A stretch of 64,000 bases of DNA from assembly GCF_001659605.2 (NCBI RefSeq), contig NC_035169.2, positions 15,872,263 to 15,936,262 of the forward strand, in the 5' to 3' direction. How positions within the stretch are numbered: the stretch's first letter is position 1; every line of letters starts with the position of its first letter. Position numbers and translations under genes: made by a program. Of this stretch, positions 7,814 through 64,000 are shown one piece after another. The notes beneath the pieces were generated by a model that searched no databases, was not told where the DNA came from, and saw only the letters and a program-made list of their open reading frames with translations. This stretch comes from Manihot esculenta. Its lineage: Eukaryota; Streptophyta; Magnoliopsida; Malpighiales; Euphorbiaceae.

Positions 7814-8362
7814 CGCGGAGATGGCTGAAGTCAATGCACAACCTGCTGCCCATGCTGAACCTGCTGTCCATGATGAATTAATACAAGAAAATCCAGCAAT
7901 GAGGCCACCAATGCCAAGAGAAAGAACACTGAGAGAGTTGGCAGCCCTATAGGTGATCAAGCACCTCTCTGCATCACCTATGCGCCTCTGACAGTCCGTT
8001 TTGAGCTCAAAACAGGTTTGATACATCTGCTACCTAAATTTAGAGGTTTGGAGAATGAAAATCCATATAAGCACTTGAAAGAATTTCACATTGTATGTTC
8101 ATCTATGAGGCCGCAAGGCATAACTGAAAAGCATGTTAAACTGAGAGCATTCCCATTCTCACATGATGATTATGCCAAAGATTGGTTGTTTTACTTACCA
8201 CTTGGATCAATCACTTCTTAGAATGGTATGGTAAGAGCTTTTCTGAATAAATATTTCCCTACTTCTAAAGCCATAGGCATAAGAAGAGAGATAAGTAGCA
8301 TTAAGCAAAAAGATACTGAGGATTTGTATGATTATTGGGAAAGATTTAAGAGATTGTGTACA
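7814..8362 (+). pseudogene. C family (Athila-like) gag fragment
   Basis: Readable motifs are PRERTLREL, EFHIVCSSMRPQG, KLRAFPFSHDDYAKDWLFYLP and FLNKYFPTSKAIGIRREIS, the gag pattern of Athila-type Ty3/gypsy elements. There are several frame breaks near 7950-8020 and a TAG at 8219-8221 in place of Trp (compare TGA at 11228 in the second copy). It ends near DYWERFKRLC, where unrelated sequence begins. Confidence 0.82.
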
Positions 8363-28298: not shown

Positions 28299-29097
28299 TG
28301 ATACGGATCTAATAGGGCAAATTTCTAACAATTGTGTGGAGCAAACTTATGTTATTCAAACACATCTAAAAGGAGTTGAAAATCATATTCATATGATCCA
28401 TATATATTTGGGGCATGCTTCAACTCATATGGGACAGATTTGGTGCAACACTTGCAATCATAGGCTTAGGGAGCCTAATCAAACCTATGGGCTAAAACTA
28501 CACAAAGGGAAGCCTAAAGTGAAGATCAAGCAGGGTTTTGTGAAGATTCAGCTTTGTTATGATGGGCTTGCTATATTTTTATTATTTAACACTTATTTTA
28601 TTTTAGCTTTGTTTGGGCTTGTATTCTGGCCATACATTTATCTTTTAAGTTTTAGAGTGTTGAGCCATATTTTCGGCTTATGTTTTAATACTTATGTGTT
28701 ATTTTAGTGTGTGATTGGGCTTGGGCCTTAGGTGTTTAAGTCAGACCCAAGAAGAGTGTCTTAGGGTTTTATTTGTTTTTCTCCTTACTATATAAGGATA
28801 AGAAACAATTGTAAGATGCAGGTTTTAATCAAAATTTCAGAATTCTTTTCATGCCTTTGGCGTGTATTGCTTTGAGTGAGAGTGAGGATTTGCTTTCATC
28901 AATTGCACCAGGAATCTTGACTAACTTATCAACTATTCGTTGTGGCGTTTGTCAGATTCTCATCTAAATCCTTCGGTCATTGGTGTTTCAGCTTCTCTAA
29001 GTGTGGGGTGCCATAGGAGGTGGGTTTATGAAATCTTTGGATTCCATATCTACTTGTGCGTGTGAGTTTGATGCTTGTGCCATAGGGTTCCGCGTCA
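28299..29097 (+). repeat. LTR-A, complete, between a D pol scrap and an LTR-D piece
   Basis: 799 bp with both ends. Its left neighbour is 15 bp of antisense D pol and its right neighbour an internal piece of reverse LTR-D; flanks ctgtc and aatgc do not match, so it is not a clean solo LTR. The LTR-encoded frame runs through its U3. The TATA box is at 28789. Confidence 0.86.
28789..28795 (+). promoter_or_regulatory. TATA box shared by A and D LTRs
   Basis: TATATAA in ttactatataagg, present at the same place in nearly all A and D LTRs here, ~300 bp before the LTR end. It lies in the part of the LTR that A and D share, which implies a common promoter. Confidence 0.7.
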
Positions 29098-44174: not shown

Positions 44175-45176
44175 TTCGAATCTGTACCAAAATCAAAAGA
44201 AGACAAATCAGAAACATTAAAGGTAGCATCCCCTCGTGCATCGAGTTTTGATTTCCTTTGAGTCGGAAACCTTTCCTTTCGCATATGGATCCAAACCCAA
44301 TCACCTGGTCTGAATACAACTTTCTTGCAACCCTTATTGGCCTGTTTCTCATACATTTTGTTCGGCTTCTCAATATGCTCACGCGCTTTCATGTGTATTG
44401 ATTTAACCATTTCAGCCTTCGCTCTTCCATCTAAATTAGACAGCTCGTTCAAAGGTAAAGGCACTAAATCTAATACAGTTAATGGATTAAAAACATACAC
44501 AATTTCAAAAGGTGAATAACCAGTAGAACAATGGATAGCGCGATTATAAGCAAATTCAACATATGGCAAACATTCTTCCCAAGTTTTCAAGTTCCTACCC
44601 ACAATAGCACGAAGCATAGTTCCTAAAGTCCTATTAAAAACTTCAGTTTGGCCATCTATTTGTGGATGACAAGTAGTAGAAAAGAAAAGTTTAGTACCCA
44701 ATTTCCCCCACAAAACACGCCAGAAATGACTAAGGAACTTAGAATCTCTATCAGAAACAATAGTCCTAGGTATACTATGCAAACAAACTACTTTCTTGAA
44801 AAACAAATCAGCTATGTTCGTTGCATCATCAGTTTTATGACATGGAATAAAATGTGCCATCTTACTACAACAACAAACACTGAATCTCTACCTCTTTTTT
44901 TCCTAGGTAAACCAATCACAAAATCCATAGATATATCAGTCCAATGTTCAGTAGGTACAGGCAAAGGCGTATACAACCCATGTGGCAAGGACTTAGATTT
45001 AGCCTGTTTACATGCAAAGCATTGAGTACAAATTTTCTCTATATATTTTCGCATATTAGGCCAATAAAAGTGTTCATTCAACATGTCTAAAGTCTTTTAC
45101 ATACCAAAATATCCCATTAACCCTCCTGAATGCGATTCTCTAACAAGCAACTCACGCACTTAACAATTGGATATGC
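44175..45176 (-). pseudogene. B-type integrase, antisense
   Basis: HHCC region ([18 protein letters not shown]), core ([39 protein letters not shown]) and C-terminal part ([20 protein letters not shown]). A gap joins KLDARGD to ATFNVSDL. A small deletion near 44868 (VVVVRW) shifts the frame. It joins LTR-B downstream and an LTR-A/D end piece at ~45177. The segment from 44621 is duplicated in tandem. Confidence 0.85.
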
Positions 45177-45356
45177 ATCAATTGCACCAGGAATCTTGGC
45201 TAACTTATCAACTATTCGTTGTGGGATTTGTCAGATTCTCATCTAAATCCTTCGATAATTGGTGTTTCAGCTTCTCTAAGTGTGGGGTGTCATAGGAGGA
45301 GGGTTTATCAAATCTTTGGATTCCATATCTACTTGTGCGTGTGGGTTTGAGGCGCG
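45177..45356 (+). repeat. LTR-A/D end piece (copy 1)
   Basis: R/U5 portion from atcaattgcaccagg to ggtttgaggcg, without the final CA end, which is lost at the duplication joint. Confidence 0.8.
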
Positions 45357-45908
45357 TCCTAAAGTCCTATTAAAAACTTCAGTTTGGCCATCTATTTGTG
45401 GATGACAAGTAGTAGAAAAGAAAAGTTTAGTACCCAATTTCCCCCACAAAACACGCCAGAAATGACTAACTTAGAATCTCTATCAGAAACAATAGTCCTA
45501 GGTATACTATGCAAACAAACTACTTTCTTGAAAAACAAATCAGCTATGTTCGTTGCATCATCAGTTTTATGACATGGAATAAAATGTGCCATCTTACTAC
45601 AACAACAAACACTGAATCTCTACCTCTTTTTTTCCTAGGTAAACCAATCACAAAATCCATAGATATATCAGTCCAATGTTCAGTAGGTACAGGCAAAGGC
45701 GTATACAACCCATGTGGCAAGGACTTAGATTTAGCCTGTTTACATGCAAAGCATTGAGTACAAATTTTCTCTATATATTTTCGCATATTAGGCCAATAAA
45801 AGTGTTCATTCAACATGTCTAAAGTCTTTTACATACCAAAATATCCCATTAACCCTCCTGAATGCGATTCTCTAACAAGCAACTCACGCACTTAACAATT
45901 GGATATGC
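45357..45908 (-). pseudogene. B-type integrase fragment (duplicate)
   Basis: Second copy of 44621-45176: HHCC region and first part of the core (to [15 protein letters not shown] region), carrying the 4-bp loss that shifts the frame after IVSDRDSK. Confidence 0.84.
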
Positions 45909-46108
45909 ATCAATTGCACCAGGAATCTTGGCTAACTTATCAACTATTCGTTGTGGGATTTGTCAGATTCTCATCTAAATCCTTCGATAATTGGTGTTTC
46001 AGCTTCTCTAAGTGTGGGGTGTCATAGGAGGAGGGTTTATCAAATCTTTGGATTCCATATCTACTTGTGCGTGTGGGTTTGAGGCGTGTGCCATAGGGTT
46101 CCGCGTCA
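45909..46108 (+). repeat. LTR-A/D end piece (copy 2), with intact CA end
   Basis: R/U5 region ending gggttccgcgtca at 46108, followed by antisense B gag. It probably represents the far end of the LTR begun at 43527. Confidence 0.82.
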
Positions 46109-46426
46109 CATTTTTTTTCTTCATTATTCGCTTCATCTCCTCCCAACTAGCAATGGGTAACACTCCATTCCTTCTCCTAGATTCACAAGCTCATCCCACC
46201 ATATTAGTGCATAATCTGAAAACTCAAGGGCAGCAAGTTTTACCTTTTTATCGTCGGAATAGTTTTGACAGTTAAAAACCATCTCCACTTTACGCTCCCA
46301 CTCTAAATAGGCATCAACATCAGCTTTACCATTGAAGCTTGGAATCTTCATCTTTATGGAGTTCATACTGTTACCTACATATGGTACACGATCATTGAAC
46401 CTTCTGGCTCGGAAAGGGGCTGATTG
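46109..46426 (-). pseudogene. B-type gag capsid fragment, antisense
   Basis: MNSIKMKIPSFNGKADVDAY and KLAALEFSDYALIWWDEL are readable on the minus strand, followed by a 1-bp loss (VNLGEG for VKSRRRNG frame) and the scrap EMKRIM. It ends at the U5 end of an A element at 46427. Confidence 0.85.
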
Positions 46427-47225
46427 TGACGCGGAACCCTATGGCACAAGCCTCAAACCCACACGCACAAGTAGATACGAAATCCAAAGATCTGATAAAC
46501 CCACCTCCTATGGCACCCCAAATTTAGAGAAGCTGAAACACCAATGATCGAAGGATTTAGATGAGAATCCGACAAACGCCACAACGAATAGTTGATAAGT
46601 TAGCCAAGATTCCTGGTGCAATTGATGAAAGCAAATCCTCACTCTCACTCAAAGCAATACACGCCAAAGGCATGAAAATAATTCTGAAAATTTGATTAAA
46701 AGCTCCCTCTTACAATTGTTTCTTATCCTTATATAGTAAGGAGAAAAACAAATAAAACCCTAAGACACTCTTCTTGGACCTGACTTAAACACATAAGGCC
46801 CAAGCCCAATCACACACTAAAATAACACATAAGTATTAAAACATAAGCCCAAAACATGGCCCAACACTCTTAAACTTAAAAGATAAAGTATGGCCAGAAT
46901 ACAAGCCCAAACAAAGCTAAACTAAAACAAGTGTTAAATAATAAAAATATAGCAAGCCCATCATAACAAAGCTGAATCTTCACAAAAGTCTTACTTGATC
47001 TTCACTTTAGGCTTCCCTTTGTGTAGTTTTAGCCCATAGATTTGATTAGGCTCCCTAAGCCTATGATTGCAACTGTTCCACCAAATCTGTCCCATATGAG
47101 TTGAAGCACGCCCCAAATATATATGGATCATATGAATATGATTTTGAACTCCTTTTAGATCCATTTGCATGACAAAAGTTTGCTCCACACCATTGTTAGA
47201 AATTTGCCCTATTGGATCCGTATCA
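46427..47225 (-). repeat. 3' LTR of A5
   Basis: 799 bp, both ends intact; encodes the end of the A5 ORF (with WWNSCNHRL in place of WCNTCNHRL, so the first Cys is lost in this copy). Confidence 0.92.
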
Positions 47226-48409
47226 TTCTCTCCTTCTTTAGAAAAGATTCGTCCTCGAATCTTGCTGATATTTATGTCAAAAAGAGAATCTTTAGGAACC
47301 CATGTATCTTCAAAGACCTCCTTTTGAAAAGGTGGAAATAGGATAAAACTTTTGTCATGAATCTTTTCATCAACAACCTGCACATCAAAAACAAATGAAC
47401 TAGACATAAATATATTAGTCATAGAAATATCATGTGGATGTGACCCATTCTCCTCTACAACTTCCAAAACAGTCTTATTCACCTCCTCCACCTCATCAAT
47501 CATGTGCTTCCCATGTCCACCATCATTCACAACCTCTTCTATAAGCTCATTAATGGAATTTTCAAGAACAACTACATTAGATGATTGCATTACAACTTCC
47601 TCTTCAATTTGAATCTCTATGGAAGTTGACATTGGAACTTTAGCCTCTTCTTTCTCCTTTTCTTTCTCCATCTTCCCTCCTTGAACTAGTCTTGATTCTT
47701 TTCCAGCCTCGTTACCCTCAAACTCACTCTTTTCTCTCATTTTTTCCACAGAACTCAAGCTCTCACTCACCTTTGTAGCCAAGGCCGAAGCCTCCCTCTC
47801 CCTCTCCAGCATTTTTATGTGATCGGCATATACCTCTTGAGGTGATAAAGGAGCGAGTATAAGCTTCTGTCCTTCATGAGTGAAGGAGTACTTGTTATTG
47901 AGCCCATCATGTTGCACCTTTCTATCATATTGCCACGGCCTACCCAACAATATATGGCTTGCCTGCATAGGTACCACATCGCACAAGATCTCATCCTTAT
48001 ACCTACCAATAGAAAATGGTATAACCACCTGTCGTGTAACTCTGACCTCACCACAATCGTTCAACCATTGCAATCTGTATGGCTTAGGGTGTTTAATAGA
48101 AGCCAAGCCCAATTTCTCCACCATATACACACTAGCCACATTTGCACAACTACCTCCATCAATAATGACAGTACACACTTTTCCATTAACCAAACACCTA
48201 GTGTGAAATATGTTTTCCCGTTGTTCCAGGCTTTCTTCCTTAACCTGCATATTCAGAGCACGCCTAGCAACAAGCATCTCACAATGTGCAGCAAGCAACA
48301 CATTATTAACAGACACATCCGAATCATCACAGTCATTATTGCAATTATGAGTTCTTTGAGGTATTCTTGTAGAAGTGGACGCTGGTGAGATATTCTGATC
48401 TTTACTCAT
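46991..48409 (-). CDS. A5 ORF: protease plus acidic region, reading into 3' LTR
   Basis: 472 residues from ATG 48407-48409 (MSKDQNISPAS). Same layout as the A3 ORF and uninterrupted: [20 protein letters not shown], a charged linker, the acidic segment (EIQIEEEVVMQSSNVVVLEN, DKSFILFPPFQKEVFEDT), KIRGRIFSKEGEN and the LTR tail ending KPKVKIK. Differences from A3 are scattered substitutions. Confidence 0.85.
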   Translation of the reverse strand: MSKDQNISPASTSTRIPQRTHNCNNDCDDSDVSVNNVLLAAHCEMLVARRALNMQVKEESLEQRENIFHTRCLVNGKVCTVIIDGGSCANVASVYMVEKLGLASIKHPKPYRLQWLNDCGEVRVTRQVVIPFSIGRYKDEILCDVVPMQASHILLGRPWQYDRKVQHDGLNNKYSFTHEGQKLILAPLSPQEVYADHIKMLEREREASALATKVSESLSSVEKMREKSEFEGNEAGKESRLVQGGKMEKEKEKEEAKVPMSTSIEIQIEEEVVMQSSNVVVLENSINELIEEVVNDGGHGKHMIDEVEEVNKTVLEVVEENGSHPHDISMTNIFMSSSFVFDVQVVDEKIHDKSFILFPPFQKEVFEDTWVPKDSLFDINISKIRGRIFSKEGENDTDPIGQISNNGVEQTFVMQMDLKGVQNHIHMIHIYLGRASTHMGQIWWNSCNHRLREPNQIYGLKLHKGKPKVKIK

Positions 48410-49350
48410 CCTCCCTTGAATCAACAAAGAACAAAGAGAACTAGCAAATATTGTGTTAGAAAGGAAAGCACTCAAGTGTCTGCACACTTACCACTCTTTT
48501 GCTGATTCTTCAATTGCACTTCAGAAACTAAGGTCAACCAACCAACCACAAGGTGCGTTTAATGAAACAAAAAAAGAAAACCTAAAGAAAGAACGAAACG
48601 CGCAAAAACTAGAAAGAAGACACTGACAATTTGAAAAGTAACACATGAACTAGGTTTTGTGCTACTTGAAAAATATTACCTAGAGTATAGCCACAAGCAA
48701 ACAATACTCCAGCAATGTCAAGGAAGTAAAAGCAAGCTTAAACCAAAAAGAAACTTTGAATTGAAATAAAGACGAATCTGGACAAAAGTTTGAATTTAAT
48801 TCACTTCAATGCAAATTAAATATGGATCTATTTAAATCTACCCAAAAAAGGCAAGTATCAAAACACCACAAATAGAAAAAAAATATATATATATAAATTT
48901 CTCTTAGATCATAAATATGGACGAAAATGGGCATTAAAAAAAAAGGATTTGACACCAAATCGATTTAGATCCAATTGCCTTAAATGTGCACTTTAGGAAA
49001 TAGGCAGAAATTCTTTTATCTCCTAATCTGTATTCAACCAAATTCAAAATTCAAAATTGATTCCCACAAATTACAGCAATCAATTGAGATAGGTAAGGCA
49101 ATATGGACGAAAAAGGAAACATACCACAATATCGGCCAGATCAAGATAAATAAGGTAAAGGCGATTTTTGATTTTTGATTTTTTTTTTTTTAAGGATTTC
49201 GGTTTTTTTTTTTTTATAACAAATAATCAAGAAGGTGTAGCCATGGACACACAAGCTTTCACCGAAAAGAATAGGAAAGAAAAGGAAAACTCAAAAACCC
49301 TAGATCCTAAGATAAATCAGAATTTACCTCACTTTGGCTCTGATACCAAC
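48410..49350 (-). other. A5 leader with primer-binding site
   Basis: 0.94 kb; exact TTGGTATCAGAGCC primer-binding site at its LTR end, a T tract at 49165-49215, and a short AT repeat near 48885. No gene. Confidence 0.83.
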
Positions 49351-49694
49351 TGACGCGGAACCCTATGGCACAAGCCTCAAACCCACACGCACAAGTAGAT
49401 ACGGAATCCAAAGATCTGATAAACCCACCTCCTATGGCACCCCAAACTTAGAGAAGCTGAAACAAAAATGATCGAAGGATTTAGATGAGAATCTGACAAA
49501 CGCCACAACGAATAGTTGATAAGTTAGCCAAGATTCCTGGTGCAATTGATGAAAGCAAATCCTCACTCTCACTCAAAGCAATACACGCCAAAGGCATGAA
49601 AATAATTCTGAAAATTTGATTAAAAGCTCCCTCTTACAATTGTTTCTTATCCTTATATAGTAAGGAGAAAAACAAATAAAACCCTAAGACACTC
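49351..49694 (-). repeat. 5' LTR of A5, U5/R and promoter-proximal part only
   Basis: Follows LTR-A from TGACGCGG to 'ctaagacactc', including the TATA region, then changes at 49695 to a plus-strand A leader starting gcctttgcc. Confidence 0.87.
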
Positions 49695-50446
49695 GCCTTT
49701 GCCATATTTATCTTAATCTGGCCGAAATTGTGATATGCCTTCCTTTTTCATCTATATTTCCTTACCTATCTCAATTGATTGCTGTAGTTTATGGGAATCA
49801 AGTTTGAATTGTGAATTGGGTTGAATTCAGAGTAGGAGACAAAAGAAATCTGCCTATTCCTTAAAGTGCACATTTAAGGCAACTGCATCTAAATCGATTT
49901 GATGTCAAATCCTCCTTTTAAAACCAGAATTTTCGTCCATGTTTCTGATCTGAGTGAAATTTACATTTTTCTTTCTGATTCTATTTGTGGGGTTTTGATA
50001 CTTTCCTTTTCGGATAGATTTATATAGATCCATATTTAATTTGCTTGGAAGTGAATTAAATTCAAACTTTTATTCAGGTTCATTTTTTTATTTGAATTCT
50101 AAGTTTCTTTTTTGGTTTAAGCTTGCTTTTGCTTCCTTGACATTGCTGGAGTATTGTTTGCTTGGGTCTATACTCTAGGTGATATTTTTCAAGTAGAACA
50201 AAGCCTAGTTCGTGTCATACTTTCCAAATTGTCAGTGTCTTCTCTCTAGTTTTTTGCACGCTTCCTTCTTTCTTTAGGTTTTCTTCTTTGTTTCATTAAA
50301 CGCACCTTATGGTTGGTTGGTTGACCTTAGTTTCTGAAGTGCAATTGAAGAATCAGCAAAATAATGGTAAGAGTGCAAACACTTGAGTACTTTTTTTTAA
50401 CACAATATTTGCTAGTTCTTTTTGTTCTTTGTTGATTTAAGGTAGG

Positions 50447-52382
50447 ATGAGTAAAGACAAGAATGTGGTGGATCGTACTGATGGAAGTGAATCGAATATG
50501 GGTAACGATTATAAGCTCTTTAAGAAGTCAGTCAGTGGTGAGTTACAAAAGCTCAATAAGACTCTTGAGAGGTTGACTGAAACTATGGAGAGTTTGAATG
50601 TCTCACAAGCTTCCACTTCTACAAGAATACCTCAAAAAACTCCTAATTGCAATAATGACTGTGATGATTCGGATGTGTTGGTTAATAATGTGTTGCTTGC
50701 TGCACATTGTGAGATGCTTGTTGCTAGGCGTGCTCTGAATATACAGGTTAAGGAAGAAAGCCTAAAACAACGGGAAAACATATTTCACAATAGGTGTTTG
50801 GTTAATGGAAAAGTGTGTACTCTCATTATTGATGGAGGTAGTTGCACAAATGTGGCTAGTGTGTATATGGTGGAAAAATTGGGCTTTGCTTCTATTAAAC
50901 ACCCTAAGCCATATAGATTGCAATGGTTGAATGATTGTGACGCGGAACCCTATGGCACAAGCCTCAAACCCACAAGCACAAGTAGATATGGAATCCAAAG
51001 ATCTGATAAACCCACCTCCTATGGCACCCCACACTTAGAGAAGCTGAAACACCAATGATTGAAGGATTTAGATGAGAATCTGACAAACGCCACAACAAAT
51101 AGTTGATAAGTTAATCGAGATTCCTGGTGCAATTGATGAAAGCAAATCCTCACTCTCACTCAAAGCAATACACGCCAAAGGCATGAAAATAATTCTGATA
51201 ATTTGATTTCAAAGCTCCCTCTTACAATTGTTTCTTATCCTTATATAGTAAGGAGAAAAAGAAATAAAACCCTAAGACACTCTTCTTGGGCCTGACTTAA
51301 ACACATAAGGCCCAAGCCCAATCACACACTAAAATAACACATAAGTATTAAAACATAAACCCAAAACATGGCCCAACACTCTAAAACTTAAAAGATAAAA
51401 TATGGCCAGAATACAAGCCCAAACAAAGCTAAAATAAAATAAGTGTTCAAATAATAAAACATAGCAAGCCCATCATAACAAAGCTGAATCTTCACAAAAA
51501 CCTTACTTGATCTTCACTTTAGGCTTCCCTTTGTGTAGTTTTAGCCCATAGGTTTGATTAGACTCTCTAAGCCTATGATTGCAAGTGTTGCACCAAATCT
51601 GTCCCATATGAGTTGAAGCACGCCCCAAATATATATGGATCATATGAATATGATTTTGAACTCCTTTTAGATCCATTTGAATGACATAAGTTTGCTCCAC
51701 ACCATTGTTAGAAATTTGCCCTATTGGATCCGTATCAGATTGTGGAGAGGTTAGGGTTACACACCAGGTGGTTATACCATTTTCTATTGGTAGGTATAAG
51801 GATGAGATCTTATGTGATGTGGTACCTATGCAGGCAAGCCATATGTTGTTGGGTAGACCGTGGCAACATGATATGAAAGGAGAAATAAGAGGGTAAAGAG
51901 GCTGGAGAAGAATCAAGACTAGTTCAAGGAGGGAAGGTGGAGAAAGAAAGGAGAAATAAGAGGCTAAAGTTCCAATCTCAACTTCCATAGAGATTGAAAT
52001 TGAAGAGGAAGTTGTAATGCATGAATCTAATGTAGTTGTTGTTGAGAATTCCATCAATGAACTTATAGAAGAGGTTGTGAATGATGAGGGACATGGGGAG
52101 CACGTGATTGATGAGGTGGAGGAGGCGAATGAGACTGTTTTGGAAGTTGTAGAGGAGAATGGGTCACATCCTCAAGATCTTTCTATGACTAATATTTTTT
52201 GTGCCTAGTTCATTTGTTCTTGATGTGCAGGTTGTTGATGAAAACATTCATGACGAAAGTTTTATCCTATTTCCACCTATTCCAAAGGAGGTCTTTGAAG
52301 ATACACGGGTTCCTAAAGCTTCTCTTTTTGATATAAATATCAGCAAGATTCGAGTACGAATCTTTTCTAAAGAAAGAGAGAA
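50447..52382 (+). pseudogene. A unit 3 ORF, split and deleted
   Basis: MSKDKNVVDRTDG start, IIDGGSCTN; interrupted at LQWLNDC by a solo LTR-A, resuming DCGEVRVTHQVV. A deletion near 51875 removes the protease end and part of the linker; a further change near 51950 and one at ~52197 (ttttttgtgcc for ttttatgcc) shift the frame. The acidic region is readable in two pieces (52017-52208 and 52201 on). Confidence 0.85.
50938..51737 (-). repeat. Solo LTR-A, TSD GATTG
   Basis: 800 bp with intact ends, flanked by GATTG at 50933-50937 and 51738-51742. It shares small markers (cacacttag, taatcgag) with the LTRs of A3, so it belongs to the same young subfamily. Confidence 0.94.
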
Positions 52383-52653
52383 TGATACGGATCCAATAGG
52401 GCAAATTTCTAACAATGGTGTGGAGCAAACTTATGTTATTCAAATGGATCTAAAAGGAGTTCAAAATCATATTCATATGATCCATATATATTTGGGGCGT
52501 GCTTCAACTCATATGGGACAGATTTGGTGCAACACTTGCAATCATAGGCTTAGGGAGCCTAATCAAACCTATGGGCTAAAACTACATAAAGGGAAGCCTA
52601 AAGTGAAGATCAGAAACAAAGCTGAATCTTCACAAAAGTCTTACTTGATCTTC
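52383..52653 (+). repeat. LTR-A start with inverted continuation
   Basis: Follows LTR-A U3 to gtgaagatca (52612). The following LTR bases then appear in reverse complement (52613-52653, aaacaaagctgaatc to gatctt), a micro-inversion at the joint with the copia relic. Confidence 0.8.
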
Positions 52654-53921
52654 TAAACTGGCAAGCTATCTACATGATTATTATGTTCATCTCAACAAGG
52701 GCTCTCATCAATCTTCTTTATCCTGTGTTACTTCTTTTCCTATTCAACATTACCTTTCCTATGACAGATTACCTCCCTCATATAGATCATTTGTGTTAAA
52801 TGTCAGCTATACTCTTGAGCCAGCCACTTATCATCAAGCTATTAAATTTTCACATTGGAGACAAGCTATTAGGATGAATTAAATGCCTTACAGTCTAATA
52901 ATACATGGTCAATTACTAGTCTTCCTATTGGAGTCAAGACCATAGGGTGTAAGTGGGTATATAAAGTCAAAATCAAGTCTGATGGGAGTATTGAAAGATA
53001 TAAAGTTAGATTTATAGCCAAGGGCTACACACAAAGGGAGGGTTTTGATTTTACAAAAACTTTTAGTCCTGTAGCTAAACATACTACTGTTAGGACTAAA
53101 CAAGGTTGGTTTCTTTCTCTATTAAAGGTGCATAATGCTTTTTTAAATGGAGATTTGAATGAGCATGTCTACATGGACATTCCTTTGGGTTATACAGTGC
53201 AAGGGGAGTATGGAGTTAATTCAAAGTTAGTAAGCAAGTTACAAAATTCTTTATATGGCCTAAAATGGGCTTCAAGACAATGGAATGTAAAGTTCACGCA
53301 GTGCTTGATTGTAGAAGGTTTCTCACAGTCTAAATCAAACTATTCATTTTTTACAAAACACGTGAATAAAAGCTTCATTGTTGTCCTTGTTTATATGAAT
53401 GATATCATTGTTAGTAGTAATGATAAGTGGTTAGTTAACCAATTCAAAAATTGCTTGAGTTCCCATTTCAAGTTGAAATATTTGGGTACCTTATAATATT
53501 TTCTTGGACTTGAAATAGCCAAAAATGCAAAAAGTATCATGATTTCTCACAGAAAGTTTGTTTTGGAGCTACTGGAGGAATATGACATACTTGGATCCAA
53601 ACCAATCACCTTTCTTGTTGAAATAAATGCGAAATTGACTCATGTTGACCCAGAATTACTGACAGATCCCATTGTCTATAGAAAAACTGTTGGAAAATTA
53701 ATGTACATTACACTAACAAGGCCAAATATTTCCTATGGTGTGCATATATCGTTGCAGTTTTTAGATAAGCCTGCTCAAATTCATCTAGATGCTGCATTTA
53801 AAATTCTTAAATACCTGAAGAATGCTCCGGGGTAAGGTTTATTCATGTCTATTCATTCAGAATCTAAGTTGACAGCATATTGTGATAGTGATTGGGCCAA
53901 CTGCATTTAAACTAAAAGGTC
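52654..53921 (+). pseudogene. Ty1/copia RT-RNase H relic
   Basis: Copia-type RT wording: GCKWVYKVKIKSDGSIERYK, AKGYTQREGFDFTKTFSPVA, NAFLNGDLNEHVYMDIP, YGLKWASRQWN, VYMNDIIVSS (the usual YVDD is altered to YMND), then the connection/RH region YRKTVGKLMYITLTRPNISY and YCDSDWANC. Upstream (52660-52860) a weakly readable integrase-RT linker. There are frame changes near 52870 and 53100 and TAA at ~53495 (GTL-stop-YFLGLEI) plus TAA at ~53835. No LTR, gag or integrase core; unrelated to the Ty3 families around it. Confidence 0.87.
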
Positions 53922-54539
53922 TGACGCGGAACCCTATGGCACAAGCCTCAAACCCACACGCACAAGTAGATACGGAATCCAAAGATCTGATAAACCCACC
54001 TCCTATGGCACCCCAAACTTAGAGAAGCTGAAACACCAATGATCGAAGGATTTAGATGAGAATCCGACAAACGCCACAACGAATAGTTGATAAGTTAGCC
54101 AAGATTCCTGATGCAATTGATGAAAGCAAATCCTCACTCTCACTCAAAGCAATACACGCCAAAGGCATGAAAGGAATTCTGAAAAGTTTGATTAAAAGCC
54201 GCCTCTTACGATTGTTTCTTATCCTTATGTATAGGAGAAAAACAAATAAAATCCTAAACACTCTTCTTGGGTCTGACTTAAACACCTAAGGCCCAAGCCC
54301 AATCACACACTAAAATAACGCATAAGTATTAGAACATAAGCCCAAAACATGGCCCAACACTCTAAAACTTAAAAGATAAAATATGGCCAGAATACAAGCC
54401 CAAACAAAGCTAAAATAAAACAAGTGTTAAATCATAAAAATATAGCAAGCCCATCATATCAATGCTGAATAAATTAGACAGCGCTATCTCCATTACACAC
54501 CTTAAGCAAGGTGAGTAGCTTAGGTGTGTCTTCAAGCTT
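53922..54539 (-). repeat. LTR-D, first part, split by the E/A insertion
   Basis: Reverse LTR-D from its U5 end TGACGCGG to gtgtcttcaagctt. It continues at 60412 (agcttcacgagac) after the 5.87-kb insert; agctt is duplicated. The far end at 60487 is cut by a deletion into D integrase. Confidence 0.9.
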
Positions 54540-55416
54540 TGACGCGGAACCCTATGGCACTTAGTCCTCAAACCCCGTCGCACCTCTGATATAGATTCCA
54601 AGAACGTGGATAAACCACCCTCTATAGCACCCTAAGCTTAGCGAAGCTAGAACACTAATAACGGAAGGATTTTGTAGAACGGATCAGAAGAACGCCACTA
54701 TCGAAATTGATAAGTTGGTCTGATTCGTGATGCAATCAATGAAAGAAGCAAACTCTCACTCTCTCAAAGAAGGCCGAAATTTGCATAAAGCAAATCTGAA
54801 TTAAATTTGTCAAAAAAACAAAAAAAGTGTCTGATATAAGAATTTAAGGCCTTATTTATAGTGTAAGGCAAAAACCTAAACCTAGTTGGAAAAGGAAAAC
54901 AAATACTAAGTCAGAATTCCTATCCCAACAGGGAAACAAGCTAAAATAACAAAAATAACTGCCAAGTCTTTAAAAACCAACCACATTCTCGTATGCCTCA
55001 ATAGTTCCAGCAGAAACCACAACCTCAGGGACGAAACCACAACCTGCTTATGGTTCGGGCTGATTCTCCACTATCTTCCTCCATGATGTGCTCCAAAATT
55101 AACTTCCACAAAACACAAAAGTATCTTCGGCTAACTGAATGTCGCGAGCGCGACTTTGATAATGGTAGCGAGCGCTACAAATCTTCAATTTGCTTCTGCT
55201 TCATCCATGCATACACCCAGCAACGTAATCAGCTTCGAATGACCTTCAAGTTCCTTCTCGCACTTATCCCTAGCAATTTCAGTCATCTCTCTTGTAATAA
55301 ATTCTTGAATATGCAATCCAAGAGTAACGCCGTACTTCCTTGCTTTATTCCTTGTCAATGGTCCTTGTTGTAGCTCCAAGGGATCCTTGCCTTGCTTCCC
55401 ATGCTGGTTCACATCA
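54540..55416 (-). repeat. LTR-E (3' LTR)
   Basis: 877 bp, TGACGCGG ... TTCACATCA on the plus strand. The terminal ~20 bp at the U5 end match LTR-A and LTR-D, but most of the rest is diverged. The sense TATA is ACACTATAAATAAGG near 54855. A purine tract (aaagaaggggagaa in sense) adjoins at 55417. The E polyprotein tail ends inside it at 55185. Confidence 0.88.
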
Positions 55417-58190
55417 TTCTCCCCTTCTTTAAAAAGATTTGTCCTCAAATCTGCATCGTCATAAGGAGACAAATCAGAAACATTAAAAGTGGCACTAACA
55501 CCATACTCACCAGGCAAGTCAATCTTATAAGCATTGTCATTGATCTTCTCCAAGACTTGAAATGGACCATCACCACGCGCATCCAGCTTATTCTTCCTTT
55601 GATTTGGGAACCTCTCCTTGCGAAAATGCACCCAAACCCACTCTCCAGGAGCAAACACCATCTTCTTGCGACCCCTATTCGCAATATCAGCATACGTCTT
55701 GTTCTTTTTCTCCATGTTAGCTCGTGCTTTCTCATGCAAAGCTTTCACCAAGTCAGCTTTCTTCTCTCCATCTAAACTTACAAGTTCATTAGAAGGTAAT
55801 GGCAAAAGATCAAGAACAGTTAGTGGATTAAAGCCATAAACTAGCTCAAATGGCGAATAACCTGTAGAAGAATGAATAGAACGATTATAAGCAAATTCAA
55901 TAAAAGGTAAACAATCTTCCCAAGTAGCCAAATTCTTACCCACTATAGATCGCAATAACGTACCAAGAGTACGATTCACAACCTTGCTTGTACTTAATCA
56001 CATATGGAAATCTCTCAATTCGTTCGATCCACTTACCATGCCGTTTGTTCAACTTACCTTGGCCCTTCAAATGCTTGAGGGATTCATGGTCAGTATAAAT
56101 CACGAACTCCTTTGGCAGCAAGTAATGCTCCCACACGTCCAACGCCCTCACCAAAGCATGTAACTCCTTGTCATATGTAGAATAACTCAGTTGTGCACCA
56201 TTGAGTTTTTCACTAAAATATGCTATTGGCTTCTTCTCTTGCATCAGCACAGCCCCAATACCTACACCAGAAGCATCACATTCAATCTCAAAAATTGAAT
56301 CAAAATTAGGCAAAGCTAAGACAGGTGCAGATGTCAACTTCCCTTTCAAATTCTCAAACGCCTTTTGCTGCTCTTCTCCCCACTGAAATCCAACCTCCTT
56401 TTTGATAATGCTAGTGAGTGGTGCTGCAATGGTAGAAAAATCCTTCACGAATCTTCTATAGAAACTTGCTAGCCCATGGAAGCTCCTCACTTCAGTCACG
56501 TTCTTAGGAACAGGCCATTCCTTTATAGCTTTCACTTTCTCTTCATCAACTTCTAATCCCTGTGCACTCACAACAAAGCCAAGAAAAACAAGCCTATCCA
56601 TGCAAAATGTGCATTTCTTAAGCTTGGCATATAAGTTTTCTGTTCTCAAAGCTTCCAACACTATCCTACCATGCTCTAAATGCTCATCTAATGTCTTACT
56701 ATAGATCAGAATGTCATCAAAATAAACAACAACAAATCTGCCCAAATAAGCTCTCAAAACATGGTTCATTAATCTCATAAATGTACTCGGTGCATTAGAC
56801 AACCCAAAAGGCATTACTAACCACTCATATAGGCCATATTTTGTTTTAAAAGCTGTTTTCCACTCATCCCCAGGTTTCATACGAATTTGATGATATCCAC
56901 TCATAAGATCAATTTTAGTAAAATACCTTGCACCATGTAACTCGTCCAACATGTCGTCAAGTCGTGGAATGGGATGTCGATACTTCACCGTGATCTTATT
57001 TACAGCCCTACAATCGACACACATCCTCCACGTGCCATCTTTCTTTGGTACCAGCAAAACAGGAACGGCACAAGGGCTTAAGCTCTCTCTAATCAAGCCT
57101 TTCTCCAACAGCTCCTCCACTTGTCGCTGCATCTCCTTGGTCTCCATTGGGTTACTTCGATATGCTGGTCTATTTGGAATCGTCGAACCAGGTATGAAGT
57201 CGATTTGGTGTTCAACTCCCCTTAATGGCGGTAAACCACTAGGCAGCTCCTCTGGAAACACATCTTGAAAATCCTGCAACATAGACACAAAACTAGAAGG
57301 CAAATGGTCAAGTGAAACATCAACATTAGTAAACAAAGTTTCTTTATATCTAATGAGCAATAACGGCTGCTCGTTAGATATTGCAAATTTAAGCTCTCTT
57401 GGTTTCGCATAAAAAGTTTGTTTCACCTTTCCTTGGTTTTCTCTCACCAATGGGCCATTTATTTGATTATTTTCTTTTCTGGCCTCCTTTCCCAATTTCT
57501 TCTCACATTCACTCTCCTTATCATGTTCTCTCGCACTTCCCTTAATTTTTAAAGTAGCACCCCTTTTGGTCGAATCTTGCTTTGCTTTTTCATGCATCTT
57601 CCGATGATCTTCATACACCTCCAACGGTGATAATGGTACAAGAGTAACCAGCTTTCCTTCATAGGTAAATGTGTACCTATTTGAATACCCATCATGCTGC
57701 GCCTTCCTATCAAATTGCCATGGTCTTCCTAACAACATATGGCCAGCTTGCATAGGAACTACATCACACAACACTCCATCTTTATACCAGCCTATAGAGA
57801 ATGGTATCTTCACTTGTTTAGTAACCTTCACCTCTCCACTATCATTAAACCATTGTAGTCTATATGGATGTGGATGTTTTAAACAAGTCAATTTCAGCTT
57901 CTCCACCATTGTCTCACTTGCAGCATTGGTGCAACTACCACTGTCAATGATGAGCATACAAACTTTACCCTCAACTAAACATCTAGTATAAAATATGTTA
58001 TCTCGTTGCTCTAGACCTTCTTCTTTCACTTGCATATTCAAAGCACGCCTAGCAACTAACATATCACCACGTTCAGCAACCAACGCATTCTCAACTTCTT
58101 CTTCACACTCATCAACATCATCAAGCATATCATTCATATCATTATTATCACCATCACTATGGTCAGAATCAGAAACTAAACCCCCATCCC
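55185..58190 (-). pseudogene. E-type PR-RT-RH-(deleted)-IN end
   Basis: Opens in the spacer between gag knuckle and PR ([11 protein letters not shown]). Protease IIDSGSCTN keeps the canonical DSG. RT is complete with [11 protein letters not shown] and [11 protein letters not shown] has [13 protein letters not shown] and [12 protein letters not shown]. At 55980 RH (VIKYKQG) joins to the integrase core (NRTLGT) through a shared ggt, losing ~250 residues including HHCC and the first catalytic Asp residues, and breaking the frame. The integrase C-terminus ([13 protein letters not shown]) and tail (LQQGPLTRNKARKYG) read into the LTR. The RT frame is long and otherwise unbroken (55936-58190). Confidence 0.88.
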
Positions 58191-58361
58191 AATTCAAAAT
58201 TCAAAATTCAAAATTAATTCCTATAATTTACTGCAATCAATTGAAATAGGTAAGGCAATATTGACGAAAAAGGAAGTATATCACAATTTCGGCCAGATCA
58301 AGGTAAATAAGGCAAAGGCGATTTTTTTTTTTTTTTTTTTTTAGATTAATAATCAAGAAGG
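58190..58361 (-). other. A-type leader piece, inverted
   Basis: Reverse leader sequence (tcaaaattcaaaat ... aataatcaagaaggtgca) matching 34020-34205, joined on the left to E gag-PR spacer through ccaattcaaaa and on the right to plus-strand A leader through a shared 'gtgca'. It includes the T tract (58321-58342). Confidence 0.83.
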
Positions 58362-58470
58362 TGCAATTGAAGAATCAGCAAAAGAGTGGTAAGTGTGCAA
58401 ACACTTGAGTTCTTTCTTTTCTAACACAATATTTGCTAGTTCTCTTTGTTCTTTGTTGATTTAAGGTAGG

Positions 58471-59847
58471 ATGAGTAAAGATCAGAATGTCTCACCAGCG
58501 TCCACTTCTACAAGAATACCTCAAAGAACTCATAATTGCAATAATGACTGTGATGATTCGGATGTGTTTGTTAATAATGTGTTGCTTGCTGCACATTGTG
58601 AGATGCTTGTTGCTAGGCGTGCTCTGAATATGCAGGTTAAGGAAGAAAGCCTGGAACAACGGGAAAACATATTTCACACTAGGTGTTTGGTTAATGGAAA
58701 AGTGTGTACTGTCATTATTGATGGAGGTAGTTGTGCAAATGTGGCTAGTGTGTATATGGTGGACAAATTGGGCTTGGCTTCTATTAAACACCCTAAGCCA
58801 TACAGATTGCAATGGTTAAACGATTGTGGTGAGGTCAGAGTTACACGCCAGGTGGTTATACCATTTTCTATTGGTAGGTATAAGGATGAGATCTTGTGCG
58901 ATGTGGTACCTATGCGGGCAAGCCATATATTGTTGGGTAGGCCGTGGCAATATGATAGAAAGGTGCAACATGATGGGCTCAATAACAAGTACTCCTTCAC
59001 TCATGAAGGACAGAAGCTTATACTCGCTCCTTTATCACCTCAAGAGGTATATGCCGATCACATAAAAATGCTGGAGAGGGAGAGGGAGGCTTCGGCCTTG
59101 GCTACAAAGGAGAGTGAGAGCTTGAGTTCTGTGGAAAAAATGAGAGAAAAGAGTGAGTTTGAGGGTAACGAGGCTGGAAAAGAATCAAGACTACTTCAAG
59201 GAGAGAAGATGGAGAAAGAAAAGGAGAAAGAAGAGGCTAAAGTTCCAATGTCAACTTCCATAGAGATTGAAATTGAAAATTCCATTAATGAACTTATAGA
59301 AGAGGTTGTGAATGATGGTGGACATGGGGAGCACATGATTGATGAGGTGGAGGAGGTGAATAAGACTGTTTTGGAAGTTGTAGAGGAGAATGGGTCACAT
59401 CCACATGATCTTTCTATGACTAATATTTTTATGTCTAGTTCATTTGTTCTTGATGTGCAGGTTGTTGATGAAAACATCCATGATGAAAGTTTTATACTAT
59501 TTCCACCTATTCAAAAGGAGGTCTTTGAAGATACATGGGTGCCTAAAACTTTCCTTCTTGACATAAATATCAGCAAGATTCGAGGACGAATCTTTTCTAA
59601 AGAAAGAGGGAATGATACGGATCCAATAGGACAAATTTCTAACAATGGTGTGGAGCAAACTTATATCATTCCAATGGATCCAAGAGTAGTTCAAAATCAT
59701 ATTCATATAATCCATATATATTTAGGGCGTGCTTTAACTCATATGGGACAGATTTGGTGCAACATTTGCAATCATAGGCTGAGGGAGCCTAATCAAACCT
59801 ATGGGCTAAAACTACATAAAGGAAAGCCTAAAGTGAAGATCAAGTAA
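58471..59847 (+). CDS. A ORF of the chimera: protease plus acidic region, reading into LTR
   Basis: 458 residues, MSKDQNVSPAS start 110 bp after the leader joint. [20 protein letters not shown], linker, acidic region with a 15-residue in-frame gap compared with A2 (EIEIENSINELIEEV), then DESFILFPPIQKEVFEDT, KIRGRIFSKERGN, and LTR tail with [14 protein letters not shown] and stop after KPKVKIK. It is intact. The leader before it (58361-58470) has no primer-binding site or LTR. Confidence 0.86.
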   Translation: MSKDQNVSPASTSTRIPQRTHNCNNDCDDSDVFVNNVLLAAHCEMLVARRALNMQVKEESLEQRENIFHTRCLVNGKVCTVIIDGGSCANVASVYMVDKLGLASIKHPKPYRLQWLNDCGEVRVTRQVVIPFSIGRYKDEILCDVVPMRASHILLGRPWQYDRKVQHDGLNNKYSFTHEGQKLILAPLSPQEVYADHIKMLEREREASALATKESESLSSVEKMREKSEFEGNEAGKESRLLQGEKMEKEKEKEEAKVPMSTSIEIEIENSINELIEEVVNDGGHGEHMIDEVEEVNKTVLEVVEENGSHPHDLSMTNIFMSSSFVLDVQVVDENIHDESFILFPPIQKEVFEDTWVPKTFLLDINISKIRGRIFSKERGNDTDPIGQISNNGVEQTYIIPMDPRVVQNHIHIIHIYLGRALTHMGQIWCNICNHRLREPNQTYGLKLHKGKPKVKIK

Positions 59848-60411
59848 GGCTTTTGTGAAGATTCAACTTTGTTATGATGGGCTTGCAAGTTTTATTATTT
59901 AAACACTTGTTTTATTTTAGTTTTGTTTGGGCTTGTATTCTGGCCATATTTTATCTTTTAAGTTTAAGAGTGTTGGGCCATGTTGTGGGCTTATATTTTA
60001 ATACTTATATGTTATTTTAGTGTGTGATTGGACTTGGGTCTTATGTGTTTAAGTCAGGCCCAAGAAGAGTGTCTTAGGGTTTTATTTCTTTTTCTCCTTA
60101 CTATATAAGGATAAGAAACAATTGTAAGAGGCAGCTTTTAATCAAACTTTTCAGAATTTCTTTCATGCCTTTGGCGTGTATTGCTTTGAGTGAGAGTGAG
60201 GATTTGCTTTCATCAATTGCACCAGGAATCTTGGCTAACTTATCAACTATTTGTTGTGGCGTTTGTCGGATTCTCATCTAAATCCTTCGATCATTGGTGT
60301 TTCAGCTTCTCTAAGTTTGGGGTGCCATAGGAGGTGGGTTTATCAGATCTTTGGATTCCGTATCTACTTGTGCGTGTGAGTTTGAGGCTTGTGCCATAGG
60401 GTTCCGCGTCA
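59613..60411 (+). repeat. LTR-A (3' LTR of the A half)
   Basis: 799 bp after the purine tract AAAGAAAGAGGGAA; ends TTCCGCGTCA at 60411. Closest by small markers to the solo LTR at 18662 (attgcaaatgttgcacc type). From 59735 it is part of a large tandem duplication. Confidence 0.92.
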
Positions 60412-60487
60412 AGCTTCACGAGACATTTGCCAAAGGCAAGCTCAGTCAATTCTTGTGTTACTTGTTCTTGAATGTGTAAGTTCATAG
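60412..60487 (-). repeat. LTR-D, second part of the split LTR
   Basis: Continues 53922-54539 after the TSD, then stops at gtaagttcata where D integrase sequence begins; ~170 bp of U3 plus the coding end up to NDNAYK are missing. Confidence 0.87.
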
Positions 60488-62560
60488 GTTATAACCATTG
60501 TCATTGATTCGCTCTAAGACTTGAAATGGACCATCACCACGAGCATCCAGCTTATTCTTCCTCTGATTTGGAAATCGTTCCTTTCGGAAGTGCACCCAAA
60601 CCCAATCACCAGGAACAAACACCACTTTCTTCCGTCTCCTATTTGCCCTGTCAGCATACACCTTGTTCCTCTTTTCTATGTTAGACCTAGCCTTCTCATG
60701 TAAGGACTTCACCAATTCTGCCTTTTTAGCACCATCTAAACTAGCAAGCTCATGTAAAGGTAAAGGAACAAGATCAAGTACAGTTAGTGGGTTAAAACCA
60801 AAACAAGCTCAAATGGAGAAAACCCTGTAGAAGAATATATGCTACGGTTATATGCAAACTCAATGAAAGGCAAGCAATCTTCCCAAGTGTTCAAATTCTT
60901 ACCCACTATAGCTCTGAGTAAGGTACCAAGAGTTCTATTCACCACCTCTGTTTGGCCATCTGTCTGTGGATGACAAGTAGTAGAATATAAGAGTTTAGTA
61001 CCCAACTTACCCCACAATACTTTCCAAAAAATGCGAAAGGCACTTTGTATCTCTATCTGACACAATTGTCCTTGGCACTCCATGAAGTCGAACCACTTCC
61101 CGGAAGAACAAGTCAGCGACATTGATGGCGTCATCAGTTTTATGGCAAGGAATGAAGTGAGCCATCTTGCTAGTCCTGTCGACAACAACAAATATGCTAT
61201 CTCTACCACGCCTAGTCCTAGGTAAGCCAAGCACAAAGTCCATAGAAATATCCATCCAAGGTGAACTAGGAACAGGTAAAGGCATATAAAGACCATGAGG
61301 CATAGACTTAGACTTTGCCTGTCTACATGTAATACAAGAAGCACACACTTTCTCAACGTCTTTGCGCATTGAAGGCCAATAAAAATGCTCAAATAAGGTG
61401 TCATAAGTCTTATGTACTCCAAAATGCCCCATCAAACCACCGCAATGAGATTCAAGCACAAGCAAATCACGCATAGAGCATCTAGGTACACACAATTTCT
61501 TACCCTTAAACAAGTAACCATCATGCCTATAAAAAGAGTTAAAAGCTCCATGCTCACAAGCCACAAACACATTGCCGAAATCAACATCATTATTGTACAA
61601 GTCTTTAACATGCGCAAAACCAAGCAATTTAGAACTCACAACATTAATTAAAGCATACCTCCTAGACAAAGCATCTGCAACCACATTGTCTTCCCCATGC
61701 TTATACTTAATCACATATGGAAATTGTTCAATAAACTCAACCCACTTACCATGCCTCTTATTCAACTTGCCTTGTCCCTTCAAGTGTTTTAAGGACTCAT
61801 GATCCGTATGTATCACAAACTCCTTGGGCAGGAGATAGTGTTGCCACACGTCCAGTGCTCTCACCAAGGCATACAAATCCTTTTCATAGGTTGGATAATT
61901 GAGATGTGCTCCGTTCAACTTCTCACTGAAATAGGCTATTGGTTTCTTCTCTTGCATCAACACAGCCCCAATACCTACACCAGAAGCATCACACTCAATT
62001 TCAAAAGTTTTATCAAAGTTAGGTAAAGATAATATAGGAGCAGATATTAACTTCCCTTTTAAGCAGTCAAAAGCTTTCTGTTGCTCCTCTCCCCATTTGA
62101 ACCCAACTTCCTTCTTAATAATTCCTGTGAGTGGTGCTGCAATCGTAGAGAAATCGCGCACAAACCTCCTGTAAAAGCTTGCAAGGCCATGAAAGCTCCT
62201 CACATCTGAAATAGATTTAGGAATAGGCCACTCCTTTATAGTTTTCACCTTCTCTTCATCTACCTCAATTCCCTGTGCACTCACAACAAAACTAAGGAAA
62301 ACAAGTCTATCTATACAAAATGTGCACTTCTTAAGTTTAGCATACAAGCTATCTCGCCTCAAAACCTGCAGAACCAACCTAACATGCTCAATATGTTCGT
62401 CGAGAGACCTGCTATAGATCAAGATATCATCAAAGTAAACAACTACAAATTTTCCTAAGTATACACGCAACACATGATTCATTGGCCTCATAAACGTACT
62501 AGGTGCATTTGACAAACCAAAAGGCATAACTAACCATTCATACAAACCATACTTTGTCTT
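60488..62560 (-). pseudogene. D-type RT (part)-RH-IN, antisense
   Basis: Frame 61007-62545 covers the end of RT ([18 protein letters not shown]), RH ([25 protein letters not shown]), HHCC ([29 protein letters not shown]) and the integrase core to [11 protein letters not shown]. An extra A near 61025 (six instead of five) shifts the frame; core and C-terminus follow ([32 protein letters not shown]). A missing A near 60800 shifts it again; the duplicate at 63620 has the extra A. It stops at RT KTKYGMYEW, where the duplicated LTR-A begins. Confidence 0.88.
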
Positions 62561-63235
62561 TAACTCATATGGGACAGATTTGGTGCAACATTTGCAATCA
62601 TAGGCTGAGGGAGCCTAATCAAACCTATGGGCTAAAACTACATAAAGGAAAGCCTAAAGTGAAGATCAAGTAAGGCTTTTGTGAAGATTCAACTTTGTTA
62701 TGATGGGCTTGCAAGTTTTATTATTTAAACACTTGTTTTATTTTAGTTTTGTTTGGGCTTGTATTCTGGCCATATTTTATCTTTTAAGTTTAAGAGTGTT
62801 GGGCCATGTTGTGGGTTATATTTTAATACTTATATGTTATTTTAGTGTGTGATTGGACTTGGTCTTATGTGTTTAAGTCAGGCCCAAGAAGAGTGTCTTA
62901 GGGTTTTATTTCTTTTTCTCCTTACTATATAAGGATAAGAAACAATTGTAAGAGGCAGCTTTTAATCAAACTTTTCAGAATTTCTTTCATGCCTTTGGCG
63001 TGTATTGCTTTGAGTGAGAGTGAGGATTTGCTTTCATCAATTGCACCAGGAATCTTGGCTAACTTATCAACTATTTGTTGTGGCGTTTGTCGGATTCTCA
63101 TCTAAATCCTTCGATCATTGGTGTTTCAGCTTCTCTAAGTTTGGGGTGCCATAGGAGGTGGGTTTATCAGATCTTTGGATTCCGTATCTACTTGTGCGTG
63201 TGAGTTTGAGGCTTGTGCCATAGGGTTCCGCGTCA
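62561..63235 (+). repeat. LTR-A, truncated at start (duplicate)
   Basis: Copy of 59735-60411, starting within the LTR-encoded frame and ending TTCCGCGTCA at 63235, followed by the same LTR-D piece (63236-63311). Confidence 0.88.
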
Positions 63236-64000
63236 AGCTTCACGAGACATTTGCCAAAGGCAAGCTCAGTCAATTCTTGTGTTACTTGTTCTTGAATGTG
63301 TAAGTTCATAGGTTATAACCATTGTCATTGATTCGCTCTAAGACTTGAAATGGACCATCACCACGAGCATCCAGCTTATTCTTCCTCTGATTTGGAAATC
63401 GTTCCTTTCGGAAGTGCACCCAAACCCAATCACCAGGAACAAACACCACTTTCTTCCGTCTCCTATTTGCCCTGTCAGCATACACCTTGTTCCTCTTTTC
63501 TATGTTAGACCTAGCCTTCTCATGTAAGGACTTCACCAATTCTGCCTTTTTAGCACCATCTAAACTAGCAAGCTCATGTAAAGGTAAAGGAACAAGATCA
63601 AGTACAGTTAGTGGGTTAAAACCAAAAACAAGCTCAAATGGAGAAAACCCTGTAGAAGAATATATGCTACGGTTATATGCAAACTCAATGAAAGGCAAGC
63701 AATCTTCCCAAGTGTTCAAATTCTTACCCACTATAGCTCTGAGTAAGGTACCAAGAGTTCTATTCACCACCTCTGTTTGGCCATCTGTCTGTGGATGACA
63801 AGTAGTAGAATATAAGAGTTTAGTACCCAACTTACCCCACAATACTTTCCAAAAAATGCGAAAGGCACTTTGTATCTCTATCTGACACAATTGTCCTTGG
63901 CACTCCATGAAGTCGAACCACTTCCCGGAAGAACAAGTCAGCGACATTGATGGCGTCATCAGTTTTATGGCAAGGAATGAAGTGAGCCATCTTGCTAGTC
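63236..64000 (-). pseudogene. LTR-D piece and D-type integrase (duplicate), cut by right edge
   Basis: Copy of 60412-61175. 63236-63311 is the LTR-D scrap; from 63312 minus-strand integrase reads [42 protein letters not shown]. The frame near 63626 is intact here, unlike 60800 in the first copy; the extra A before SHFW (63850) is present in both. Confidence 0.86.

Follow-up and report, generated by a model that had tools for sequence, protein, structure and literature searches.

How can a single insertion of a long terminal repeat (LTR) retrotransposon come to have a U5 end at both of its outer borders, with parts of two different families between them? The question is raised by one stretch of the Manihot esculenta genome (assembly GCF_001659605.2, contig NC_035169.2, positions 15,872,263 to 15,936,262 of the forward strand), called here the window, that is, the whole of the 64,000 nucleotides analysed; bare positions below refer to it. 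The region is a nest of LTR elements, and three families are concerned: D, which bears a reverse transcriptase (RT) and shares U5 and R with A; A, which is short and has no RT; and E, which bears an RT but is more distant, its internal part being about 76% identical to that of D. A single insertion into an LTR of the host type, LTR-D, spans 54540-60411 and places an E arm and an A arm head to head. The explanation that we consider probable is that a minus-strand complementary DNA (cDNA) begun on E jumped to a co-packaged A RNA and then inverted onto the A minus-strand cDNA, and that the resulting linear DNA with two U5 ends was integrated.

Both outer borders of the insert are U5-type LTR ends: TGACGCGGAACCCTATGG starts at 54540, CCATAGGGTTCCGCGTCA ends at 60411, and neither border end is followed by a primer-binding site (PBS). 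The left border (TGACGCGG) comes from a minus-strand E LTR and the right border (CCGCGTCA) from a plus-strand A LTR, with the U5 end in each case, whereas the canonical pair is one U3 and one U5 end. The pentanucleotide AGCTT stands at 54535-54539, immediately before the insert, and again at 60412-60416, immediately after it. The parts of the insert and its borders are, in order along the window:

53922 to 54539, minus strand: left part of the host LTR-D, with its U5 end at 53922; 95.5-97% identical to the LTR-D copies at 3503, 5831 and 39101.
54535 to 54539, no strand: left copy of the target-site duplication AGCTT, found once in the five uninterrupted paralogs.
54540 to 55416, minus strand: E 3' LTR, U5 end outermost; 39 other matches at 100% among the genome matches listed.
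55417 to 58188, minus strand: interior of E, with a protease region (recognized by eye), RT, RNase H, the integrase C-terminal part and the polypurine tract; Pfam matches were obtained.
58188 to 58365, minus strand: leader of A (about 911-1091 in A coordinates), which is antisense when the plus strand is read; it differs from the C7 copy of A at one position in 181 bp.
58361 to 58365, no strand: GTGCA microhomology at the fold-back from A leader antisense to A sense, from the joint alignment.
58361 to 59612, plus strand: interior of A, taken up again at about 1612 in A coordinates; with the LTR included, 99.76% identical to the C7 copy.
59613 to 60411, plus strand: A 3' LTR, U5 end outermost, from LTR comparison and the match to the C7 copy.
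60412 to 60416, no strand: right copy of AGCTT, likewise found once in the five uninterrupted paralogs.
60412 to 60487, minus strand: right part of the host LTR-D; its 76-78 bp alignments with the LTR-D copies at 4119, 6442, 29172 and 39715 show 97-99% identity.
62558 to 64000, plus strand: second copy of the right border, by tandem duplication, extending beyond the window to 65388.

All five window copies of LTR-D that hold the insertion site (near 4119, 6442, 29172 and 39715, and 22954 on the minus strand) are uninterrupted when aligned and have a single AGCTT, a count that leaves out the insert itself and the duplicated right border. The preliminary description of this locus had claimed two U5 outer ends with an exact AGCTT duplication, and an LTR-D that is collinear without the insert; the border sequences confirm the former, and the five paralogs bear out the latter. 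Flanking 5-mers match by chance in about 1 of 1024 cases, and among the 34 head-to-head U5/U5 pairs that lie less than 25 kb apart in the window, equal flanks are found only for 54540/60411 and 54540/63235, the U5 end at 63235 being the tandem-duplicated copy of the insert's right border. Chance matches of flanks are nevertheless possible, since a U5/U3 pair that we read as unrelated (46427/51737) also has equal flanks, GATTG. GATTG is the left flank common to two A LTR ends in the window (46422-46426 and 50933-50937).

The right border is present twice through a 2.83-kbp tandem duplication (59734-62557 and 62558-65388), the two copies of which differ by one mismatch and three gap positions in 2831. 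It is either a very recent event or has arisen in the assembly; near its start, around 62558, there are a few shared bases. As in the template-switching complexes of cereals discussed below, the insert is a single integration with a target-site duplication, and it is well supported that what was integrated was one DNA bearing two U5 ends.

From the LTR inward, the E arm comprises the polypurine tract (PPT) side, the C-terminal part of integrase, RNase H, RT and a protease region (recognized by eye). It is 99.6-99.8% identical to a full-length E copy (L009/L010) and 99.1-100% identical to all E pieces fetched. The arm lacks 749 bp of the integrase region (joint 55981/55982, with a 2-bp overlap, AC). 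In full-length E, integrase lies downstream of RNase H, and the 749 bp deleted here sit between RNase H and the C-terminal part; in the D element, the homologous part matches Integrase_H2C2 and, below threshold, rve, and by this homology the lost segment is probably the integrase core region. The joint of this deletion is spanned by the window only, among 40 scored genome matches.

The E arm does not meet the A arm directly. The preliminary description had the 5' parts of E and A meeting each other, and its two arms stand, but its simple junction does not, because 58188-58365 is A's own inverted leader, which it had missed. Full-length E matches up to 58188 and A from 58188, with an overlap of a single base. 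The possibility that this stretch is E's own leader was rejected, as full-length E diverges past 58188, while 58185-58365 matches the A copy at C7:2975450-2979111 with one mismatch in 181 bp; when compared with window copies alone, the identity of the leader is ambiguous. At the other end of the leader, A folds back on itself: the leader breaks off at A coordinate about 911, with the A 5' LTR ending about 110 nt away, and joins the sense sequence at about 1612 via GTGCA, which sits within the near match GAAGGTGCA/GAAGTGCA. The A arm proper (58361-60411, LTR included) is 99.76% identical to the same C7 copy (five mismatches in 2051 bp), which is the closest one for both A pieces among 11 fetched A copies. 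The microhomologies at the three joints are thus 2, 1 and 5 bp; minus-strand polarity is kept from E into the A leader, and is inverted only at the last step. Both 3' LTRs are intact, and the 5' LTRs of E and of A are both absent. The compound joint of E, leader and A is spanned by the window only (114 matches, with the best 40 of 1311 candidates scored).

The two donor families are well defined. E has LTRs with TG...CA ends, a tRNA-like PBS and 5-bp target duplications; its PBS (GGCTCTGATACCAAA on the reverse strand) lies beside the 5' LTRs and is presumably that of initiator-Met tRNA. The E arm is of the Ty3/gypsy type in its RT/RNase H region, with Pfam matches to RVT_1, RT_RNaseH and SH3_Tf2-1, and the closest protein to the E reverse transcriptase, among the 120 matches listed, is from Manihot esculenta (92% over 84% of the queried region). 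A is a non-autonomous element with LTRs, PBS and PPT and neither reverse transcriptase nor integrase: a 460-aa A open reading frame (58465-59847) gave no match in a Pfam scan at E 0.001. The window contains two 3.7-kb copies of A that possess LTRs and a PBS and are flanked by equal 5-bp sequences. The outer LTRs of E and A, which are inverted relative to each other, can be aligned only over about 230 bp on the U5 side (73%), and their U3 starts are unlike (TGATGTGAACC and TGATACGGATCC), but the terminal U5 bases are identical in E and A for 21 bases (TGACGCGGAACCCTATGGCAC).

The insertion is young, as only five of 5702 positions compared are private, that is, differ from every copy compared (22 E LTRs, seven and six E internal pieces, and seven A pieces; two positions were counted twice, and a position needed at least two covering copies to score). 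Because the comparison copies are the best matches in hand, the divergence is a lower bound. The substitution rate of plants is about 1e-8 per site per year, and with this rate the insertion would date back some tens of thousands of years. Both donors, E and A, look recently active.

The minus-strand cDNA of LTR elements starts at the primer-binding site, and its 5' end becomes the U5 terminus; two minus-strand cDNAs joined head to head therefore yield a duplex with U5 at both ends. The course of events that we favour would begin with one particle holding both E RNA and A RNA, a co-packaging to which the switch from E to the A leader points. Minus-strand synthesis, primed by tRNA, would have begun on both RNAs, each DNA starting with a U5 end. 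The E-started strand would have skipped the integrase core via the 2-bp microhomology, reached a point just upstream of the protease region, and there switched to the leader of the A RNA (1 bp), keeping its polarity as in ordinary copy-choice between packaged RNAs. It would then have copied the A leader until about 110 nt before the A 5' LTR, where its 3' end, rather than undergoing the usual second strand transfer, may have paired via GTGCA with the A minus-strand cDNA, which would have been copied back as far as A's own U5 end. The double-stranded product would be a linear DNA with U5 at both ends, and one integrase could have bound, processed and inserted both of them by the ordinary concerted route, leaving the 5-bp duplication; the 21 identical U5 bases would allow one integrase to handle both ends. 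An inversion near the template end, where second strand transfer was due, accounts at once for the intact 3' LTRs, the absent 5' LTRs, the inverted A leader and the single integration; indeed, intact 3' LTRs with missing 5' LTRs are what is expected if second strand transfer failed.

The ends of other E insertions are ordinary. All 17 other copies of which both ends were read (drawn from the 39 non-window matches in a genome search with the E LTR) have one U5 and one U3 end, with equal 5-bp flanks in 15 and different ones in two. A further 33, from the 39 non-window matches in the search with the deletion joint, were read on the expected far side only: 29 have an E 5' LTR in ordinary orientation behind the PBS, one has an A-type LTR, and three, whose E contains A sequence, show no E LTR there; in 25 of the 33 the reading took in the E U3 end. 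The remaining six matches of the latter search comprise two with the U5 flank only and four already known or in a tandem complex. Both sets are best matches to the insert, and are biased toward young intact copies.

Some aberrant structures were met in this survey. The two E elements with different flanks (C18:17936524-17943819 and C15:18271155-18278477) have normal U5/U3 ends, which suggests recombination between E copies. A candidate for a second U5/U5 insertion, at C2:25420953 (L090), was discarded, as its opposite U5 belongs to an A nested in E with its own flank repeat (L100); another A nested inside E is L101. In L102 (C1:12796950-12805600, about 4482-7945), an A structure within E starts inside the A LTR (position 584), ends in an inverted piece of A LTR and replaces about 186 bp of E, and it appears to be another aberrant cDNA-like product. 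An E LTR between PBS and PPT in L041 (C4:13737280-13738280) is an internal LTR of a tandem E complex around C4:13738219, covered by L041, L062 and L063. In the window itself, 46427-52651 was likewise rejected as a second U5/U5 insertion: it has a U5 end on the left, but its right end is a truncated LTR and its flanks differ. It is a head-to-head structure, in which a minus-strand A (from the U5 of its 3' LTR to a partial 5' LTR) folds back at 49693/49694 into a plus-strand A variant, which closes with a truncated LTR and 39 bp of LTR in inverted orientation.

Several points weigh against our explanation. Only one complete U5/U5 insertion was found, with none among the 17 two-ended or the 33 far-side-only E insertions; the second head-to-head structure (46427-52651) has neither a second U5 end nor a duplication; the microhomologies at the joints fit DNA end joining as well; and among the matches listed in a search of open-licence papers, no strand-inverting switch between two minus-strand DNAs of a plant LTR retrotransposon was found.

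The end-joining point leads to the rival that survives best, though it is unlikely: concerted integration from two donors, in which the U5 end of an E and the U5 end of an A were inserted at one site, and their free ends were resected and end-joined with capture of an inverted A leader. It draws on the microhomology at the joints and on the 21 bases shared by the E and A U5 ends, but kilobases, including both 5' LTRs, must then have been lost from both donors, the third piece must by chance be A, have minus-strand polarity and stop about 110 nt away from the A 5' LTR, and the integrase-region deletion, present in no other match among the 40 scored, becomes a separate event. The preliminary description had left two options side by side, two donors or a fold-back (strand-switched) cDNA. 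The latter is favoured here by the inverted A leader with its end so near the A 5' LTR, the 2-, 1- and 5-bp microhomologies and the absence of both 5' LTRs, and the former needs two kilobase-scale resections and a fragment capture. The implication drawn at that time, that E and A products met, is well supported.

A second rival, to which we give a low probability, starts from two insertions: A at AGCTT, then E at its left border re-using AGCTT, and finally a complex deletion with a small inversion that removed the 5' halves. The locus is dense with nested elements and has been rearranged recently, as the 2.83-kb tandem duplication of the right border attests, yet an independent E must have hit the single position adjoining the A terminus, and with five private positions in 5702 there was little time for several events. 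Homologous recombination between LTRs was dismissed as a source, because by reasoning it should keep the outermost LTR bases in place. An assembly error, a wrong joining of E, A and LTR-D repeats, is the least probable, for although all parts come from high-copy, near-identical families and the neighbouring tandem copy could itself be an assembly product, two U5 ends flanked by a 5-bp duplication that is exact to the base and agrees with five uninterrupted paralogs are not what a mis-join would normally produce, the insert has private substitutions, and its joints are at 1-5 bp microhomologies rather than long identical repeats.

Published systems, compared here through excerpts of the papers cited, come near to this insert from different sides. 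Closest among the published kinds found are the cereal template-switching complexes (Sabot and Schulman 2007, PMC1950507), of which two cases were reported from about 7 Mb of Triticeae sequence, one from rice and one from maize; they are in direct orientation, carry three LTRs and have 5-bp duplications. As there, two parents would have been fused in reverse transcription and inserted once with a 5-bp duplication. The cereal complexes, however, are direct, an internal LTR is shared in them and their outer LTRs resemble each other closely, whereas the cassava parents are head to head, the insert has no internal third LTR, its outer LTRs are of different families rather than similar and direct, and both termini are U5. 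For Tnt1 in tobacco, several RNAs per particle and template switching were inferred (PMC2923131); RNAs of different copies in one particle, a defective copy served in trans and a recombinant cDNA would be common to both cases, but the Tnt1 recombinants described there have ordinary LTRs, and the terms 'head-to-head' and 'inverted' are absent from the text of that paper. Retroviral integrases have been assayed in vitro for concerted joining of U5-only ends (PMC3790719), and there too U5 ends are joined together to one target, though by purified enzyme acting on oligonucleotides, whereas here it is a genomic insertion of a plant Ty3-type element. In a study on how an active Arabidopsis element is silenced (PMC11624286), read pairs were searched for oppositely oriented LTRs and none were found, in a test limited by insert size; head-to-head LTRs were considered as a possible hairpin source, and the authors proposed tandem or nested insertions as their origin, not a single product of reverse transcription as here. 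A head-to-head case in PMC12312487 is a DNA transposon. In short, no U5/U5 or head-to-head single-insertion case of an LTR element was found among the matches listed from open-licence papers, as judged by their titles and the opening lines of their abstracts, subscription journals being outside this scope.

Other features of the window include an A LTR at 28299-29097 that has no target duplication and lies between D internal sequence (left) and a D LTR (right), an arrangement that fits a deletion between two A insertions. Two A/D LTR fragments (45176-45353 and 45908-46108) lie within a local tandem repeat whose period is about 732 bp. A remnant at 52880-53900 resembles, by eye and from sequence only, a Ty1/copia-type reverse transcriptase gene.

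Judging from LTR orientation, both LTR promoters of the insert would face outward. Copying of the whole insert as a unit is unlikely, since the E arm is without the integrase core and the part upstream of the protease (presumed gag), and RT is lacking in A. The insert looks like a dead end, the fossil of the event that made it. On balance, we lean towards a strand-inverting switch between two minus-strand cDNAs having produced a two-family insertion in a single step, with two U5 ends accepted in vivo by the integrase of a plant retrotransposon and with RNAs co-packaged across families, one of them RT-bearing and the other RT-less. If this is true, the insert is a record of cross-family co-packaging, the U3 end is not needed for integration in vivo, and there is a one-step route to head-to-head LTR pairs with outward-pointing promoters; inverted transposon copies, and such arrangements generally, are discussed as triggers of transposon silencing (PMC11624286, which cites Mu killer). 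Because U5 ends mark the starts of minus-strand synthesis, two U5 ends with a clean target duplication are the signature of two joined minus-strand cDNAs, and this signature can be searched for in any genome.

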